Program-made: the position numbers and the translations under genes
In this document: one piece after another, positions 34,815 through 51,585 of the stretch
Numbering within the stretch: the stretch's first letter is position 1
Layout of the letters: the number at the start of each line of letters is the position of its first letter
NCBI RefSeq assembly: GCF_029212375.1
Contig: NZ_JARGNU010000004.1
Coordinates: 124,001 to 188,000 of the forward strand
From: Zhongshania sp.
GTDB lineage: Bacteria > Pseudomonadota > Gammaproteobacteria > Pseudomonadales > Spongiibacteraceae
Direction: 5' to 3'
Length of the DNA: 64,000 nt
Notes under the pieces: model-generated
Told to the model about the DNA's origin: nothing
Seen by the model: the letters and a program-made list of their open reading frames with translations, nothing else
Database searches by the model: none

Positions 34815-35825
34815 TTAAGTGCCGGCTCTTAGTTGGCGAATTCCTAAACCGGTGCGGCGCTTGAGCATCTTTCCTAGGGATTTGGCATCGGAATAGCCCA
34901 GTTTTTCGGCAATCGCCTCCATAGATTCACCGCGCCGCAGTTGGCGGAGGGTGAGTTTTTCAAAGACTTGTTCTTGGACCTCTTTGTAGGTGAGTTTTTC
35001 ATCCTTCAGCCTGCGCAATAGTGTGCGCTCACCGATTTCCAGTTTAGCGGATACTGTTTGACGCGATGGCGCCACGCCTTCGTCGATCAATTTTAGTATG
35101 GCTTTTTCGATAATGGCACTTTGGCTATTGAGTGTGCGAACTTGATAGTCAAGGCTGGTATCAAGGGATTCGTAAAGTTGGGGGTCGGCTGACTGGAGTG
35201 GAAGGTCTAGCAGTTTTGCGTCTAGGCATAGTGCGTATTCCTTGCAGTTAAATCGGCAGTGCGCGTTGAGCTTGGCCTCATATATTTCTTTTAGGCCAAA
35301 GTCTGGGTGCGCAAACCAGATTTCAGCATATTTATAGGTGTTGTTTGGGAAGCAGTCTTGCAAAATCCGAACACAGGCGCAGATAAAGGCGTCATAGGAG
35401 TAATGGGTAACCTCTAAATTGGGGTTTGCAAGGCGAAATCGCATCACGCCTAAGCCGCGTTCTTCCGTGAGTGAAAATTGCCACACTTCGCTTACCAAGG
35501 AGATTTGATCGAGCGCTTCTAGAATGGATTGTCGAAATGTTTTGGCGACCATCATCTTAAAGGCCAGTGAGCCAATGGTTCTAAAGTGGAAGTGGTCTAA
35601 TACATCCAGACCAAGATCGACTCGGCCAGTTAATCGCTGTGCTAATTTCCAAAGCGCAGTGAGATCCTCTTGGTTCACCCGATTCACTGAGTCCCAAGCG
35701 AGTGAAGGAATACCCGCTTTCTTCAATAACTGCCCGCGATCAAAGCCGCAGGCCGCAGCGGTAACATTGGCGACCATGTCAGCCCACTGAGCGTGGGCGG
35801 TGATAGCTAATGAGCTGTTTGTCAC
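34815..35825 (-). CDS. AraC-family transcriptional regulator
   Basis: A 336-residue protein. An N-terminal ligand-binding domain of the type found in OruR-like AraC proteins (residues 15-210) precedes the two C-terminal helix-turn-helices: APSRQTVSAKLEIGERTLLRRLK and MEAIAEKLGYSDAKSLGKMLKRRTG. It is divergent from the beta-helix/cytochrome gene, with 115 bases between their starts, so it may regulate it. The ligand is unknown. Confidence 0.88.
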   Translation of the reverse strand: MTNSSLAITAHAQWADMVANVTAAACGFDRGQLLKKAGIPSLAWDSVNRVNQEDLTALWKLAQRLTGRVDLGLDVLDHFHFRTIGSLAFKMMVAKTFRQSILEALDQISLVSEVWQFSLTEERGLGVMRFRLANPNLEVTHYSYDAFICACVRILQDCFPNNTYKYAEIWFAHPDFGLKEIYEAKLNAHCRFNCKEYALCLDAKLLDLPLQSADPQLYESLDTSLDYQVRTLNSQSAIIEKAILKLIDEGVAPSRQTVSAKLEIGERTLLRRLKDEKLTYKEVQEQVFEKLTLRQLRRGESMEAIAEKLGYSDAKSLGKMLKRRTGLGIRQLRAGT

Positions 35826-35940
35826 AAATTAACCCGTTTAAGACACGTTTCCGCATTGTACCTAATTCTTTACAAGGTAGCATAATTGCTTGATGGCGGC
35901 AGGCCGCTCAATAGTTCATAGACGTCGCAGATGGAATGTT

Positions 35941-38900
35941 ATGTTGAAATTCAAGCAAAGAGCCGTATCTCACTATTTACTATTACTGCTGGTGCTTATC
36001 CTTGCAGCTTGTGGTGGTAGCTCTAGTTCTAGTCCGAACTCGGGTAACCCCGATACGGGTGGTAACTCCAATACCGGCGGTAACCCCAGTGCCGAGGACG
36101 GGCAGGGGCGTACTTTCTTTATCGCAAACGGGCCGAATGCGACCACTGAGATGGTGTTGGCGATGATCAGCGCCAAACCCAAGGATGTTATTGAATTTGG
36201 TGAAGGCTATTTTGAACTTAGCTCTGGTATTCAAATATCCGGCACAGAAGATATCCTCGTTAAAGGCCAGGGTATGGATAAAACGGTACTCTCGTTCAAA
36301 AATAGCGGCTCGCAGGAAGGCTTTCTTGCCACCACCGTGCGCGGCATTACCGTTGAAGATTTGACGGTGCTGGATTCGCCAGGTGATGCTTTCAAACTAC
36401 AGGGTGTTGATCACGGAACGTTACGTCGCGTTCGTGCATTTTGGTCTAGCGGGCGCAACACGGCCAACGAAGACACCATAACGGCGGCAAATTATAAAAC
36501 TAAGCTGCAGGTTGCCTGTACTGATCCGGCGCGGCACAACCCTGATAATCCCAATCCCCTTGAAATGGATACGACGTCACCAGATTACAATGTCAGTAAG
36601 TTGTCGGGCCGCTATGGGGTTTACCCAGTAAACTCGCGGAATATTTTGGTTGAGTATGTGGAATCGGTAGGTGCATCTGACGCCGGTATTTATGTAGGTC
36701 AAACCGACAACGCGATTATCCGTAACAGCCGCGCCGCGTTTAACGTATTTGGTTTTGAAATTGAGAATGTGCGCGGCGGTGAGTATGTCGACAATTTGTC
36801 GGAATGTAATACCGGCGGTTTCTTGGTTTATGACTTAGACGGCCTAACGCGTTACGGTAGCCGTACCCGTATGTACCGCAACACCTCGCGCAACAATAAC
36901 ACTTACAACTTTGCCGAACCCGGCAGCATCGTATCTAACGTACCTCGCGGTACCGGTATGTTGACCATGGGTTACGACAAGATCGATATTTTTGATAACA
37001 CCTTTGAAGACAACGGCACTGCCGGTATTGTGCACACGAGCTACAAGCTATTTGGTGTGCCTGGTGATCGCCGTATGGATTTATACAGTGAAGGTGTTCA
37101 CATTTGGAATAACACCTTTAAAAATAACGGTAACGATCTACCTAGCCCTGATTTCGCCTCGATTATCGATACCGGCGGTGAGCAGGTCACCTCCGCATTC
37201 CCTATGTTAATCGGTTTAAAAATGGTGGCTGGCACCGGTGAATACCGCGGCGCGCACATCGCATGGGATGGCTATGAAGACGAATACAATGCCGATTGTC
37301 CCTATCCAATTGACAGTAATGGCGATCCGATTCCAGCAGATGCTGAAGGCAAACCTATTTCGGGTAACCAGTACCCCAATCCTTCCTGCCGTTACAATGC
37401 CTATAAGTTTAACGAGGCTGGTGAACGCAAGAAGCCGCAGTGGTGGTATTCCTGTATTGATGCCAGTAATAACTTTGACAGCGACAGCGCTACCTTCGCC
37501 AATTTTCACGGCACCGAAGGCCTAGAAGCGCTGTTATACCTGCCACCGCAAGGCCCAGAAGACCTTATAGATATTGTGACCAGTCTGCCAAACTTCCCTG
37601 TGGATACCGATATCACGCCGCATCTCTGTGACGAGACCTATGGCAGCAACATGGCGCCGTTACCGCCTATTGTGATTCCCGAGTTTGTGCCTTCTGGCAC
37701 AATTGATCCCGCGCCGTCAGATGCATTGGTCGACCAGCTGTGTAATACCACGGTAGCCGCCGGTGAGATCAATGCGGCGGCCTATACGGTAAATTGCCCA
37801 CGTCTTGATCAGTACCATTTATTTGCCGATGCAGAGGACCCTACAAGCCTACCCAATGGCCAGGGTGTGCCCTTTGTGCTGAATACCAAGTTGTTTTCGG
37901 ATTACGCCACCAAGTATCGCGTGGCCTATATTCCTAAAGGCGAGCAGGCTATTTATCGCGATGGTAATGACAACGCCAATGCGGCAATTTTATTCCCCGT
38001 CGGAACAATTCTCGCTAAGACCTTCTCTTTTACGAATGAAACGAAGCAAACTGAAGCAGCAGCTGAGACGAGGTTGGTCATAAAACGGCAAACCAGTGGT
38101 GGTCAGTATTATTGGGAAGGGTTGGAATATATTTGGAAAGCGGAAAATGGAGAGAAAGTCGCATATTTGACCCAGCAGGGCGGGTTGATGAGCGCAAGCT
38201 GGGATTACAGCGACGTTAATAGTGGTGATCACTACCAAGGCTCAACGGCTGCCTATGTATTGCCAAACGCTAACCAGTGTCAAAGTTGTCATGCCAATGA
38301 CGATGCCGAAACAGGCTCTGCGCCCATTGGCCCCAAGGCGCGGAATCTTAACCGTCCGTATAGCAGCGAGTCGCCCCTTGCCTCGGGTATGGATGCGCAT
38401 GCGGTTAACGGCAAAAACCAATTGGTATTTTGGTGTGAAACCGGCTTAATGAAAAACTGCCCCAGCAACATGGAAGTCGATTCAAATACACAGTATCTGA
38501 AGGCTGTTGAACGCAACCCAATCTTTAATATGCCGGGTGACTCGGGCTTTGATTCAAACAGCGACAAAGATGTGGAGGCGCGGGTACGCTCTTACCTTGA
38601 AGTGAACTGTGGCCATTGCCACAATCCCCGCGGATTAGCGCAGAACACCGGTTTCTATCTTGATGTATTTCGCTCAGTAAACGATACCTTTGGTATATGT
38701 AAAGGTCCGACTGCCAGTGGTAGTGAAGGTCGCGGTGGTCGTGAATATGACATTGTTCCTGGAAACGCCGCAGAATCTATTCTCCCCTACCGCCTAGGGC
38801 CCGAAGCCAATACTCTGGCGGCACGTATGCCGCCGATTGCGAGGAGTACCGTGCATGCCGCTGCATTTGATTTGATCACTAAGTGGATCAATGAAGTAGT

Positions 38901-39030
38901 TGATGACAGTTATGACAACGCGGATGCTTGCAAAACGACTAGCAGCGGCGGTGGCGCGAACGGCGGAATTTGCCTGCCAGGTGAAATACCTTTGCTCGGT
39001 GGGGCCTGTTTGCCAGCGGGTAGTTTGTAA
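35941..39030 (+). CDS. Fused lipoprotein: parallel beta-helix domain plus diheme c-type cytochrome domain
   Basis: A 1029-residue lipoprotein. ATG at 35941 opens a signal ending LILAAC|GG (Cys24), then a Ser/Asn/Gly linker with GNPDTGG-like repeats (28-55). Residues about 60-480 form right-handed beta-helix repeats (NILVEYVESVGASDAGIYVG, NAIIRNSRAAFNVFGFEIEN). Residues about 600-1005 carry two CxxCH heme sites, CQSCH at 780-784 and CGHCH at 890-894. To my memory these match two families usually encoded as adjacent genes (SO2931-like beta-helix, SO2930-like diheme cytochrome) and sometimes fused. It probably sits at the outer membrane as a redox protein with a glycan- or polymer-binding solenoid. 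Substrate unknown. The longer frame from 35890 lacks a signal at its N-terminus. Confidence 0.85.
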   Translation: MLKFKQRAVSHYLLLLLVLILAACGGSSSSSPNSGNPDTGGNSNTGGNPSAEDGQGRTFFIANGPNATTEMVLAMISAKPKDVIEFGEGYFELSSGIQISGTEDILVKGQGMDKTVLSFKNSGSQEGFLATTVRGITVEDLTVLDSPGDAFKLQGVDHGTLRRVRAFWSSGRNTANEDTITAANYKTKLQVACTDPARHNPDNPNPLEMDTTSPDYNVSKLSGRYGVYPVNSRNILVEYVESVGASDAGIYVGQTDNAIIRNSRAAFNVFGFEIENVRGGEYVDNLSECNTGGFLVYDLDGLTRYGSRTRMYRNTSRNNNTYNFAEPGSIVSNVPRGTGMLTMGYDKIDIFDNTFEDNGTAGIVHTSYKLFGVPGDRRMDLYSEGVHIWNNTFKNNGNDLPSPDFASIIDTGGEQVTSAFPMLIGLKMVAGTGEYRGAHIAWDGYEDEYNADCPYPIDSNGDPIPADAEGKPISGNQYPNPSCRYNAYKFNEAGERKKPQWWYSCIDASNNFDSDSATFANFHGTEGLEALLYLPPQGPEDLIDIVTSLPNFPVDTDITPHLCDETYGSNMAPLPPIVIPEFVPSGTIDPAPSDALVDQLCNTTVAAGEINAAAYTVNCPRLDQYHLFADAEDPTSLPNGQGVPFVLNTKLFSDYATKYRVAYIPKGEQAIYRDGNDNANAAILFPVGTILAKTFSFTNETKQTEAAAETRLVIKRQTSGGQYYWEGLEYIWKAENGEKVAYLTQQGGLMSASWDYSDVNSGDHYQGSTAAYVLPNANQCQSCHANDDAETGSAPIGPKARNLNRPYSSESPLASGMDAHAVNGKNQLVFWCETGLMKNCPSNMEVDSNTQYLKAVERNPIFNMPGDSGFDSNSDKDVEARVRSYLEVNCGHCHNPRGLAQNTGFYLDVFRSVNDTFGICKGPTASGSEGRGGREYDIVPGNAAESILPYRLGPEANTLAARMPPIARSTVHAAAFDLITKWINEVVDDSYDNADACKTTSSGGGANGGICLPGEIPLLGGACLPAGSL

Positions 39031-48372: not shown

Positions 48373-49392
48373 CTACAGCTGCCGTCGGTAATGCTGGGGT
48401 GTCATTCCGGTCCACGTCTTAAACGCGCGGGTAAAGGCGCTGGCTTCTGAAAAACCAGTGCGTTGGGCAATACTTTCAATCGATAGCTTGGACTTGCCAA
48501 GGTAGTAGAGTGCGGTATCGTGTCGACATTGCGTTTTAACGTCGTTGAATGTCGTTCCCTCTTGGGCGAGACGTCGCCGTAGAGTTTGCGGGTGCAGCTT
48601 TAATTGCTCGGCTATCTCATCAATGCTGGGGGTGTCGATGAGACGTTTGTTGATAATAATACGAACCTGCGCTGTCCAGCTCTTTTCTTTATATTGTTGA
48701 ATAAGAAACACCAAAATAGGGTGTTGTAAAAATCGGTGTAGCGATTGCTCTGTTTGCTTAGTGGGCAGCTCGGTAAGGCTGCGGTGAAATACCAGCTCGG
48801 TTTGCGCCTTGTCGAAGTAGATCGCCTGCCCTAAAAACAAATGCCGGTATTCCTCGGCGTGATCGGGGGCGGGGTATTCTAGGTTAACTGCAATTAATGG
48901 AAGATGTTGTTGGGTAAACCAACTGCTGAAGCGATGAAGATTAAACATAATCAATTCAAACGCGTAAGCTTCGTAAGGATGATTTGGATCGCCGCGATGT
49001 ATCGTCAGTTTGGCTTCATTGCCACAAATTTCAAAATGAGGTTGCAGGCCCCATTCAAACATTTGGTAAAACCGGCAATAGCGCGCCAGTGCGTGGCCAA
49101 GTGTTGCGCAGTTAATAAGCGAATAACACATATTGGTCCATGTGCCAGGTAAATAGCGGCCGGGGCCATAACCTAAAAATTCATCATTCATTGCGCGCAT
49201 AGTAATGGCTTGTAATTTGCCAAAATTTACGGCGGGAACGCGGGCATTTTGCTGCTTAAGTAGCTCGGCAGAAATGCCAGCTTCATGTAAAAGCTGTTCG
49301 GGATCCAGCCCATTTGCCGGCGCGTTTCGCAGCACCGCATGCAGAAAATAGTTGGCAACCGATATGTTGCGCATTGAAGAAATATTGCTCAT
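48373..49392 (-). CDS. AraC-family transcriptional regulator
   Basis: A 339-residue protein with the N-terminal AraC ligand-binding domain (about 18-205) and two C-terminal helix-turn-helices: SIDEIAEQLKLHPQTLRRRLAQEG and SIESIAQRTGFSEASAFTRAFKTWTG (quoted separately). It resembles OruR-like regulators. It converges on the thiolase-like gene, 16 bases away, and diverges from the TonB receptor operon across 231 bases, so either operon may be a target. Confidence 0.9.
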   Translation of the reverse strand: MSNISSMRNISVANYFLHAVLRNAPANGLDPEQLLHEAGISAELLKQQNARVPAVNFGKLQAITMRAMNDEFLGYGPGRYLPGTWTNMCYSLINCATLGHALARYCRFYQMFEWGLQPHFEICGNEAKLTIHRGDPNHPYEAYAFELIMFNLHRFSSWFTQQHLPLIAVNLEYPAPDHAEEYRHLFLGQAIYFDKAQTELVFHRSLTELPTKQTEQSLHRFLQHPILVFLIQQYKEKSWTAQVRIIINKRLIDTPSIDEIAEQLKLHPQTLRRRLAQEGTTFNDVKTQCRHDTALYYLGKSKLSIESIAQRTGFSEASAFTRAFKTWTGMTPQHYRRQL

Positions 49393-49623
49393 TAGTATTT
49401 TTTCAGAAGGCCTTGTTACGTCATTACAACGGGTTTTTGAGCATAAAATGAATTAAGAGCTAAAGTACAAGTGTAAGTCGATGTGCATAATATAGGTAAA
49501 AGCGACTATATCACCGCGTGCATGCGTGTATTAGTGTTGACTTAGCGCAACTATGCCACTGATTAGGACGTGAAAAACGATAATAGCTGAGCCATTAAGC
49601 ACACCCATAAATGAGTCTAAAGC

Positions 49624-51585
49624 ATGTCAAAGTGTTATTGGAAGGCCATAAATAAATTTGGCAAAAATACGGGGCGCGGTGGCTTGTCGGTGTTGGCGCT
49701 ATTTGTCAGCGCGGTGAGTAGCAGCTACGCGGCAAATTCTGAGCCCGTCATGCTTGCTCGTGTTGATGACTTAGCCAGTTTGAGTCTTGAGTCGCTGATG
49801 AATATCGATGTGGTATCGGTGTCTAAGCGCAGTGAGCCGCTGCAGCAATCCCCCGCCGCGGTGTTTGTTCTTGAGGGCGGTAGTATTATTCGCTCGGGCG
49901 TCAAAAGCATTCCTGAAGCGCTGCGCTTGATCCCAGGTTTGCAGGTGGCGCGCTTAGATTCTCATACCTACGCCATAACCGCTCGGGGCTTTAATTCTAC
50001 CGTTGCCGATAAGTTAGAAGTGCTTATGGATGGCCGCAGTTTATATACGCCTTTGTACTCTGGTGTCTTTTGGGACGCGCAGGATACCCTGATGGAAGAT
50101 ATTGAGCGTATCGAAGTTATTCGCGGCCCCGGCGCAGCTCTGTGGGGCGCCAACGCGGTAAATGGCGTTGTGAATATTGTTACCAAGTCTGCGGCAAAAA
50201 CCCAAGGTGGTTTAGAACAAATTGGTGGTGGTGGTGAGTTTGAAGGCTTTGCGGCGTGGCGCTACGGTGGCAAGCTCGGCGAGCTTGGCCATTACCGTTT
50301 GTACGCAAAAACCACTCACTACACTGCTCAAGAAGTTGCGGGAGCGGGTGACGCTGGTGATGCGCGAAATAATGATCAGCTTGGTTTTCGTAGCGATCTT
50401 AGGCTTAACGATAGCGATACCCTAACCTTGCAGGGCGATTTGTATAAAGAACGGATCGCGAACCCACTCAGTAATCAAGACGAGTCTATTAGTGGTCACA
50501 ATGTAATCGCACGTTGGAAGCGGCGTTACGATGATAGCGCTGACACTGAAGTGCAGTTTTATTACGATCAAACTAGCCGCGATGACACAAGAACATTTAC
50601 CGAAGATCGCAATACCTACGATTTGGAAGTGAAGCACCGTTTTGCCCTAGGCGAGCGTCAGAATTTTGTGGTTGGCGGGGGCTACCATACCACGGATGAC
50701 AATATTGGAAGCATTAATTCAGCGATACTAAAATTTGTGCCAGCGACGCGTAAAGATAAGACGTTAGACTTTTTCGCTCAAGATCAAATAGCATTAATAG
50801 AGAACAAACTGCACCTTACCTTGGGGGCGAAGTACGAAAACAATGACTATACCGGCGATGAGTTTCAGCCCAGCGTACGCGTTAGTTATATTTTAAATGA
50901 ACATAATACTGCCTGGGGGGCGGTGTCGCGGGCCGTTCGTATTCCAAATCGACTTGATCATACTTTAAATATTTATAACGGCGTTCTTGTTGGCGATGAA
51001 AGCTTCAGCTCTGAAGAAGTCATTGCTTATGAACTTGGTTACCGAACTATTTTAACCCCGACTTTATCGACAGACATTGCCGTTTTCTACAATGAATATG
51101 ATGATCTTCGTGCGTTCTCAGGTAGTTTCGGCGTGCCGCAAGCGGAGCCAATTCGAATTGTAAATGACGGTGCGGGAAGAACCCAAGGGCTTGAGCTTAC
51201 AGTTCGCTGGGAGCCGTTGCCCGAGGTGAAAGTATTGGCGAGTTACGTCTATCAGGATATGGATGTGGCGGCTAAATTCGGTAGTAAAGATATTAATATC
51301 GGCCAGAATGATGAAAACGACCCAAATAATCAACTTAACGTCAGAGTGGATTGGGATGTTGCTGCAAACGTTTCTGTTCAGGCGCGCACGCGCTGGGTTG
51401 ATGGCCTAGACGATGTTGGCGTAAAAGCCTATTCAGCATTCGATATGACCGCCATTTGGCGAGTAAGTGAACGTGTGGAACTGTCGCTGTTGGGGGCCAA
51501 TTTACTCGACCCGCAGCACGCTGAGTTTAGTGGAGGCAAGGAAATAAGCCGGAGCCTAACTGGACAATTTACATGGCATTTCTAA
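49624..51585 (+). CDS. TonB-dependent outer membrane receptor
   Basis: A 653-residue protein. Signal peptide of about 37 residues (ending SSSYAANS), then a plug domain (about 72-185) with SVSKRSEPLQQSPAAVFVLEG-like entry and DRIEVIRGPGAALWGANAVNGVVNIVTK (near 160-187, both quoted in part), and a 22-stranded barrel ending in FTWHF, the expected terminal aromatic. It imports a ligand, perhaps an iron chelate or vitamin, or senses it. Its end overlaps the yfiR-like gene by 13 bases, so receptor, YfiR and histidine kinase are one operon. Confidence 0.93.
   Translation: MSKCYWKAINKFGKNTGRGGLSVLALFVSAVSSSYAANSEPVMLARVDDLASLSLESLMNIDVVSVSKRSEPLQQSPAAVFVLEGGSIIRSGVKSIPEALRLIPGLQVARLDSHTYAITARGFNSTVADKLEVLMDGRSLYTPLYSGVFWDAQDTLMEDIERIEVIRGPGAALWGANAVNGVVNIVTKSAAKTQGGLEQIGGGGEFEGFAAWRYGGKLGELGHYRLYAKTTHYTAQEVAGAGDAGDARNNDQLGFRSDLRLNDSDTLTLQGDLYKERIANPLSNQDESISGHNVIARWKRRYDDSADTEVQFYYDQTSRDDTRTFTEDRNTYDLEVKHRFALGERQNFVVGGGYHTTDDNIGSINSAILKFVPATRKDKTLDFFAQDQIALIENKLHLTLGAKYENNDYTGDEFQPSVRVSYILNEHNTAWGAVSRAVRIPNRLDHTLNIYNGVLVGDESFSSEEVIAYELGYRTILTPTLSTDIAVFYNEYDDLRAFSGSFGVPQAEPIRIVNDGAGRTQGLELTVRWEPLPEVKVLASYVYQDMDVAAKFGSKDINIGQNDENDPNNQLNVRVDWDVAANVSVQARTRWVDGLDDVGVKAYSAFDMTAIWRVSERVELSLLGANLLDPQHAEFSGGKEISRSLTGQFTWHF

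Follow-up and report, generated by a model that had tools for sequence, protein, structure and literature searches.

The gene pair SO2930/SO2931 encodes a diheme c-type cytochrome (TIGR03806) and a parallel beta-helix protein (TIGR03805), both of which appear as outer-membrane/extracellular entries in the electron-transfer network listed in PMC4837345. P460 activity, the chemistry of a second group of cytochromes relevant here, is described in PMC11928373 for nitrifiers and a methanotroph. Among the matches listed from the open-licence text of PubMed Central, no paper was found on the function of the pair, on its fusion or on a tie between SO2930 and P460. The window, a stretch of 64,000 nucleotides from Zhongshania sp. 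(contig NZ_JARGNU010000004.1, positions 124,001 to 188,000), contains a gene in which both members of the pair are fused into one lipoprotein (Table 1). Two findings on this fusion are new, both obtained by computation: a P460-like heme domain with a conserved lysine and a tie to the alkane monooxygenase AlkB. The explanation preferred here, which has an even chance of being correct in our estimate, is an outer-membrane lipoprotein oxidoreductase with a reactive P460-like heme 1 and heme 2 as the electron outlet, serving alkane oxidisers that possess AlkB.

One reading frame runs from the ATG at 35941 to the stop at 39030 and encodes 1029 residues. The signal peptide and the lipobox ending in cysteine that define bacterial lipoproteins are present (LAAC, Cys24) and are followed by a Ser/Gly-rich linker at residues 25 to 56; the lipobox pattern is found in 31 of 37 long fusions. 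A preliminary description of the window had reported the single open reading frame (ORF), its Cys24 lipobox, the beta-helix and the CxxCH motifs at residues 780 to 784 and 890 to 894, all of which are as described. It had also named a frameshift or assembly join between the halves as a possible artifact. This is ruled out by the recurrence of the intact ORF across many genomes: Zhongshania antarctica (L064), the nearest named relative among the matches listed, carries an intact fused ORF with 94% identity, and long fusions occupy a single frame in 31 of the best 80 loci. An exception is a contig of one metagenome-assembled genome (MAG) (L036/L083) with a fusion copy split over two overlapping frames, of which only the single ORF entered the analysis. 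One stop lies within the matched stretch in 12 of the 30 long-fusion rows of the order sample; the three of these twelve that were examined (L199 to L201) are complete ORFs of 988 to 1000 aa, from which the stops are taken to be the gene's own end. The structure prediction of the whole chain, proposed as a check in the preliminary description, gives a mean predicted local distance difference test (pLDDT) score of 87.3 and a predicted template modeling (pTM) score of 0.87, which suggests, without proving, that the beta-helix and cytochrome halves pack as one body.

Both families named in the preliminary description are the right ones. In NCBIfam, TIGR03805 scores 235.3 bits, above its curated cut-off of 141.5 (the better of two stretches, residues 221 to 408), and TIGR03806 scores 257.4 bits, below its cut-off of 313.3, with profile positions 1 to 313 of 314 covering residues 618 to 985. 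By this score, the cytochrome half reads as a divergent relative of TIGR03806 and not as a strict member, and it retains the two CxxCH motifs and the shared invariant residues of the SO2930 family. The genome of the window holds one TIGR03806 match; such matches occur in 39 of 369 genomes of the class sample, 6 of which have one over the cut-off. As in the SO2930/SO2931 pair, the beta-helix comes first, and both halves align with it end to end. The fusion differs from the pair in forming one chain, in extra segments between and within the halves and in the spacing of the CxxCH motifs, which is about 110 residues in most long fusions compared to about 80 in SO2930-type proteins.

A homologue scan with an alignment of six fusions as the query gave at least 561 relatives. 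The best 80, in a ranking that favours long fusions and thus yields counts and not frequencies, comprise 31 loci with long fusions (993 to 1131 aa), 5 with shorter fusions, 43 with adjacent gene pairs and the two-frame fusion L083. In the 43 pairs, which bear out the earlier statement that the halves exist elsewhere as neighbouring genes, the beta-helix gene precedes the cytochrome gene; one pair is cut by a contig end, and another has its cytochrome in two frames. A gene tree of 101 cytochrome domains, built quickly and without bootstrap, unites 39 long fusions and 3 tandem cytochrome-only copies in one clade (Shimodaira-Hasegawa-like approximate likelihood ratio test [SH-aLRT], 99). Among the five short fusions, L088 is sister to this clade, and the other four are placed elsewhere. 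The fused or unfused state changes at least four times on the tree, with gain indistinguishable from loss. The tree neighbours of the Zhongshania protein are an Ectothiorhodospiraceae MAG and G025, and a lineage-bound fusion is disfavoured since Limnobacter and a Myxococcota MAG fall inside the clade. The fusion is real and conserved and represents a divergent clade of a known gene pair. The description of fusions as rare holds in relative terms; the long fusions make up a whole clade and are carried by 30 of the 390 order-sample genomes.

Some loci depart from the usual arrangement. At positions 76 to 4275 of L037 (G347:C105), three cytochrome-only proteins that belong to the long-fusion clade but lack a beta-helix stand in tandem, in a genome with AlkB. 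A Salinisphaerales MAG carries two tandem long fusions (L052, 8890 to 15090). An N-terminally extended copy of about 1185 aa with 46% identity is found in L202 (8370 to 11933) and L203 (7383 to 10937); in G703 it is present as a second copy, and in G579 it is the copy detected as the long fusion.

The TIGR03806-type half is probably not made up of two plain carriers, as the heme-1 domain resembles cytochrome P460/c'-beta. Structure comparison of this domain returns P460/c'-beta cytochromes in the five best rows, with low Z scores, and profile comparison with the P460 family gives 95%, with none of 40 shuffles exceeding 0.15%. The domain shares with PF16694 a P-x-G-T strand with a lysine at the crosslink position and probably a beta-sheet architecture ending in CxxCH, within a larger protein that has a second heme domain and a beta-helix. 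Scores stay below the PF16694 gathering score of 27 bits: the window protein is unmatched at E 5, and ten members scanned singly reach at most 19.7 bits (L096); among 65 members, the best E value is 7.3e-5. The segment FPVGTILAKTF of the window protein aligns with FPKGTVIVF of a Thermus thermophilus protein (L215; 154 residues, 135 in its crystal chain). Counted by hand under the assumption of a 19-residue signal, the last Phe of the latter segment (residue 80) is Phe61, and the same count places Phe29 and Gly82, as numbered in the review, on residues of the matching type. Table 2 of PMC11928373 pairs Phe61 with the lysines that form the crosslink in three P460s (Lys70, Lys78 and Lys106), and Lys693 is placed at the P460 crosslink position because it aligns with Phe61. 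All 48 aligned rows have Lys693, as do all 65 rows of alignment A3 (K99); of 102 cytochrome rows, 94 pass the lysine motif pattern, 7 more have the lysine as judged by eye, and 1 is a fragment without coverage. Computation thus supports the P460-like fold and the lysine position. Ten P460-family proteins show a lysine at the aligned position in some cases only, which is to be expected where a superfamily has both crosslinked and uncrosslinked members, and Lys693 by itself would be no proof of a heme crosslink. The catalytic carboxylate of P460 aligns to E709 or R711, both invariant, in an ambiguous register. Equating Phe29 of the Thermus c'-beta with F652 as a capping residue was dropped, as the hhalign alignment gives no support, and the MtrC-like and CCP_MauG Pfam matches are too weak for an MtrC-type or CCP-type diheme protein. 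RoxA was considered as a further candidate without being adopted.

Heme 2 resembles that of a cytochrome c with His/Met ligands, judged by predicted ligation. The features of a class I cytochrome c are present, with a helix at residues 875 to 889, the CxxCH at 890 and the invariant Met963 downstream, and in L096 a PSCyt1 match of 21.5 bits, slightly under the cut-off of 22, spans this region. The preliminary description had tentatively assigned electron movement to the heme pair, which probably does not apply to heme 1, where the domain looks to be of the ligand-binding or catalytic type. A pure electron-transfer lipoprotein, with both hemes as redox carriers and a beta-helix that merely docks to a polymer or envelope partner, is nevertheless the foremost alternative, although rather unlikely. 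The network entries mentioned above agree with it, as does the fusion of the same diheme half, with the same conserved lysine, behind a pyrroloquinoline quinone (PQQ)-type GSDH dehydrogenase in 5 of 5 proteins scanned from other loci, where an electron acceptor role is expected. In these proteins, the GSDH domain replaces the beta-helix, and in the tree six long cytochrome proteins (five with GSDH; L050 by length only) stand apart as a separate group together with L049. A carrier role for both hemes is difficult to reconcile with the aligned rows, which show no second invariant Met or His able to ligate heme 1 apart from H892 (0.98), and with the likeness of the domain to P460/c'-beta, a group in which the members studied bind ligands or act as catalysts according to PMC11928373.

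The beta-helix half forms a main strand ladder from residue 58 to about 394 in the model, with a few later strands at residues 438 to 442 and 504 to 521, and its matches to solved beta-helices reach residue about 566. The extent of about 60 to 480 given earlier is therefore a rough fit that ends between the ladder and the last matched residues. A mixed stretch with segments typical of long fusions lies between the main beta-helix and the cytochrome half; the segment comparison counted three cytochrome-only rows (L102, L107 and L109) as short fusions, and conservation was recounted without them. The fold of residues about 56 to 566 is common to the beta-helices of alginate epimerase/lyase and NosD (8ja4, 2pyg and 7osf). 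Unlike these, the beta-helix here contains no invariant His or Lys among 48 aligned rows, which disfavours an active epimerase and contrasts with the catalytic site of AlgE. The same absence makes it very unlikely that the fusion is a glycan-active or maturation protein, whose beta-helix acts on exopolysaccharide or handles metal like NosD while the hemes serve it; the NosD model TIGR04247 reaches 12.5 bits compared to a cut-off of 300.

The hosts of long fusions among the best 80 loci include Alcanivorax, Marinobacter, Hydrocarboniphaga, Solimonas and Zhongshania, and co-occurrence with AlkB was therefore tested with one query (L139, E <= 1e-50). The resulting counts ignore kinship among genomes, and some genomes fall in more than one sample. 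AlkB is present in 30 of 32 long-fusion genomes (the window genome and 31 loci) and in 5 of 36 genomes with split genes or short fusions (36 of 48 such loci entered). The class sample contains AlkB in 22 of 369 genomes, with 4 of 5 long-fusion genomes compared to 18 of 364 others. For the order sample, the total is 132 of 390, divided into 30 of 30 genomes with a long fusion (G579 being counted on its 46% identical copy) and 102 of 360 others, the latter consisting of 43 of 109 with another match and 59 of 251 without a match. Within the genus, AlkB accompanies the fusion in 13 of 13 genomes, compared to 1 of 4 without it (p 0.006). Long fusions thus go with AlkB; three long-fusion genomes lack it (L053, L070 and G229). 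In two congeners (L185 and L186), AlkB adjoins the fusion tail to tail within less than 50 bases, which is one event because the loci are near-identical. The single AlkB match of the window genome (E <= 1e-50) is 68% identical to that neighbour and is a clear relative of alkane 1-monooxygenase (8sbb, E 1.2e-104). Since AlkB is frequent in genomes without the fusion, the latter looks like an accessory to AlkB, and a role in alkane metabolism may be inferred. The AlkB locus of the window genome (L205, 2615 to 8586) has a separate PF12625 AraC gene, along with a GSDH-cytochrome protein and an ORF resembling, by eye, a cytochrome P450.

The association with a monooxygenase, together with the P460-like fold and the lysine at the crosslink position, also suits a handler of gas or hydroxylamine (NH2OH), in which heme 1 binds nitric oxide or oxidises NH2OH and protects monooxygenase-bearing cells as P460 may do beside methane monooxygenase; HAO and P460 may remove toxic NH2OH in methanotrophs (PMC11928373, section 4). 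This is considered quite unlikely, given that the split pair occurs in many genomes without AlkB and that a carboxylate at the P460 catalytic position is only ambiguously aligned. AlkB is not known to oxidise ammonia. In the oxidoreductase preferred here, the beta-helix would bind a substrate or an envelope partner, and heme 1 (CxxCH 780), P460-like, without an invariant distal Met or His of its own and with Lys693 at the crosslink position, would be the reactive centre, either five-coordinate or crosslinked, and catalytic. Electrons would flow from heme 1 to heme 2 (CxxCH 890, Met963), whose class I-like His/Met domain would pass them to a soluble cytochrome as the outlet. The protein of the long-fusion clade would in this way serve cells that oxidise alkanes with AlkB.

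The gene divergent from the fusion encodes an AraC-family regulator, whose co-occurrence had been suggested as a check. It holds within the genus, where 8 of 12 loci, in three different surroundings, have the PF12625 regulator head-to-head with the fusion, and one such pair occurs in another family (L031). No divergent AraC pair was recognised by eye in the other long-fusion loci laid out, whose neighbours were not all scanned, and support for the AraC link is confined to this genus. The AraC regulators of the fusion and of AlkB belong to the same Pfam family with 21% identity over the aligned part, and no shared regulon is therefore claimed. At 48373 to 51585 of the window, a second PF12625 AraC gene is divergent from a TonB-dependent receptor gene, after which come a YfiR-like gene and one for a sensor protein. 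A lipoprotein of approximately 830 residues lies directly upstream of the fusion in ten loci, which belong to Alcanivorax, Marinobacter and one Pseudomonadales MAG (e.g., L063, 6315 to 8807); both of two scanned show partial matches to Peptidase_M19, a metal-dependent hydrolase. Relatives of this lipoprotein are present in 50 of the 390 genomes of the order sample, including 21 of the 30 with long fusions (counted by eye). A plasmid search with the fusion as the query gave three records and no fusion on plasmids. P460-family genes, each adjoining a DUF4405 membrane gene, are found on plasmids of Rhizobium, Pseudosulfitobacter, Sinorhizobium, Peribacillus and Ensifer (L219 to L223).

Table 1. 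Features of the fusion locus, in positions of the window
Feature	Position	Strand	Basis
Divergent AraC-family regulator (PF12625 + HTH_18)	34815..35825	-	Head-to-head in 8/12 genus loci
Shared intergenic region, conserved blocks nearest the AraC start	35826..35940	.	
Gene of the lipoprotein fusion (1029 aa), comprising a beta-helix, a P460-like heme domain and a class I-like cytochrome c domain	35941..39030	+	ORF, NCBIfam, model
Lipobox LAAC, residues 21-24 (Cys24), Gly at +2	36001..36012	+	
Right-handed parallel beta-helix domain (TIGR03805), residues about 57-566, main ladder to about 394	36109..37638	+	
GASDAGIYVGQ, residues 244-254, invariant in 48/48 aligned beta-helix rows	36670..36702	+	
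Residues 458-607 with four segments mainly of long fusions (458-465, 470-502, 539-552, 580-607)	37312..37761	+	Alignment
Heme-1 domain resembling P460/cytochrome c'-beta, residues about 617-804	37789..38352	+	
Lys693 codon; the invariant residue aligns with the lysine position that crosslinks heme in cytochrome P460	38017..38019	+	Alignment
CxxCH of heme 1, residues 780-784	38278..38292	+	
Heme-2 domain, class I-like cytochrome c, residues about 875-985	38563..38895	+	Model helices; weak hits of relatives to PSCyt1/Cytochrom_C
CxxCH of heme 2, residues 890-894	38608..38622	+	
Met963 codon; the only Met that is invariant in the cytochrome half and probably the distal ligand to heme 2	38827..38829	+	

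A wider view, which is tentative and somewhat doubtful, would make the SO2930 diheme family, here ranging from Planctomycetes to Gammaproteobacteria, an unrecognised branch of P460 with a Lys-crosslinked heme and a built-in cytochrome c outlet, fused in alkane degraders to a beta-helix as a self-contained envelope oxidoreductase alongside AlkB. The host is marine and belongs to a bacterial group associated with oil degradation, and its heme 1 resembles an enzyme centre known from bacteria of the nitrogen cycle. A presumed wire thereby becomes a presumed enzyme, and a widespread cytochrome family without a function in the literature searched gains a concrete, testable heme chemistry. If heme 1 is Lys-crosslinked and shows a reduced band at about 460 nm, P460 chemistry would extend to oil degraders and many heterotrophs. 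The association with AlkB may provide a new marker of alkane oxidation at the cell envelope and may add a new component to it.
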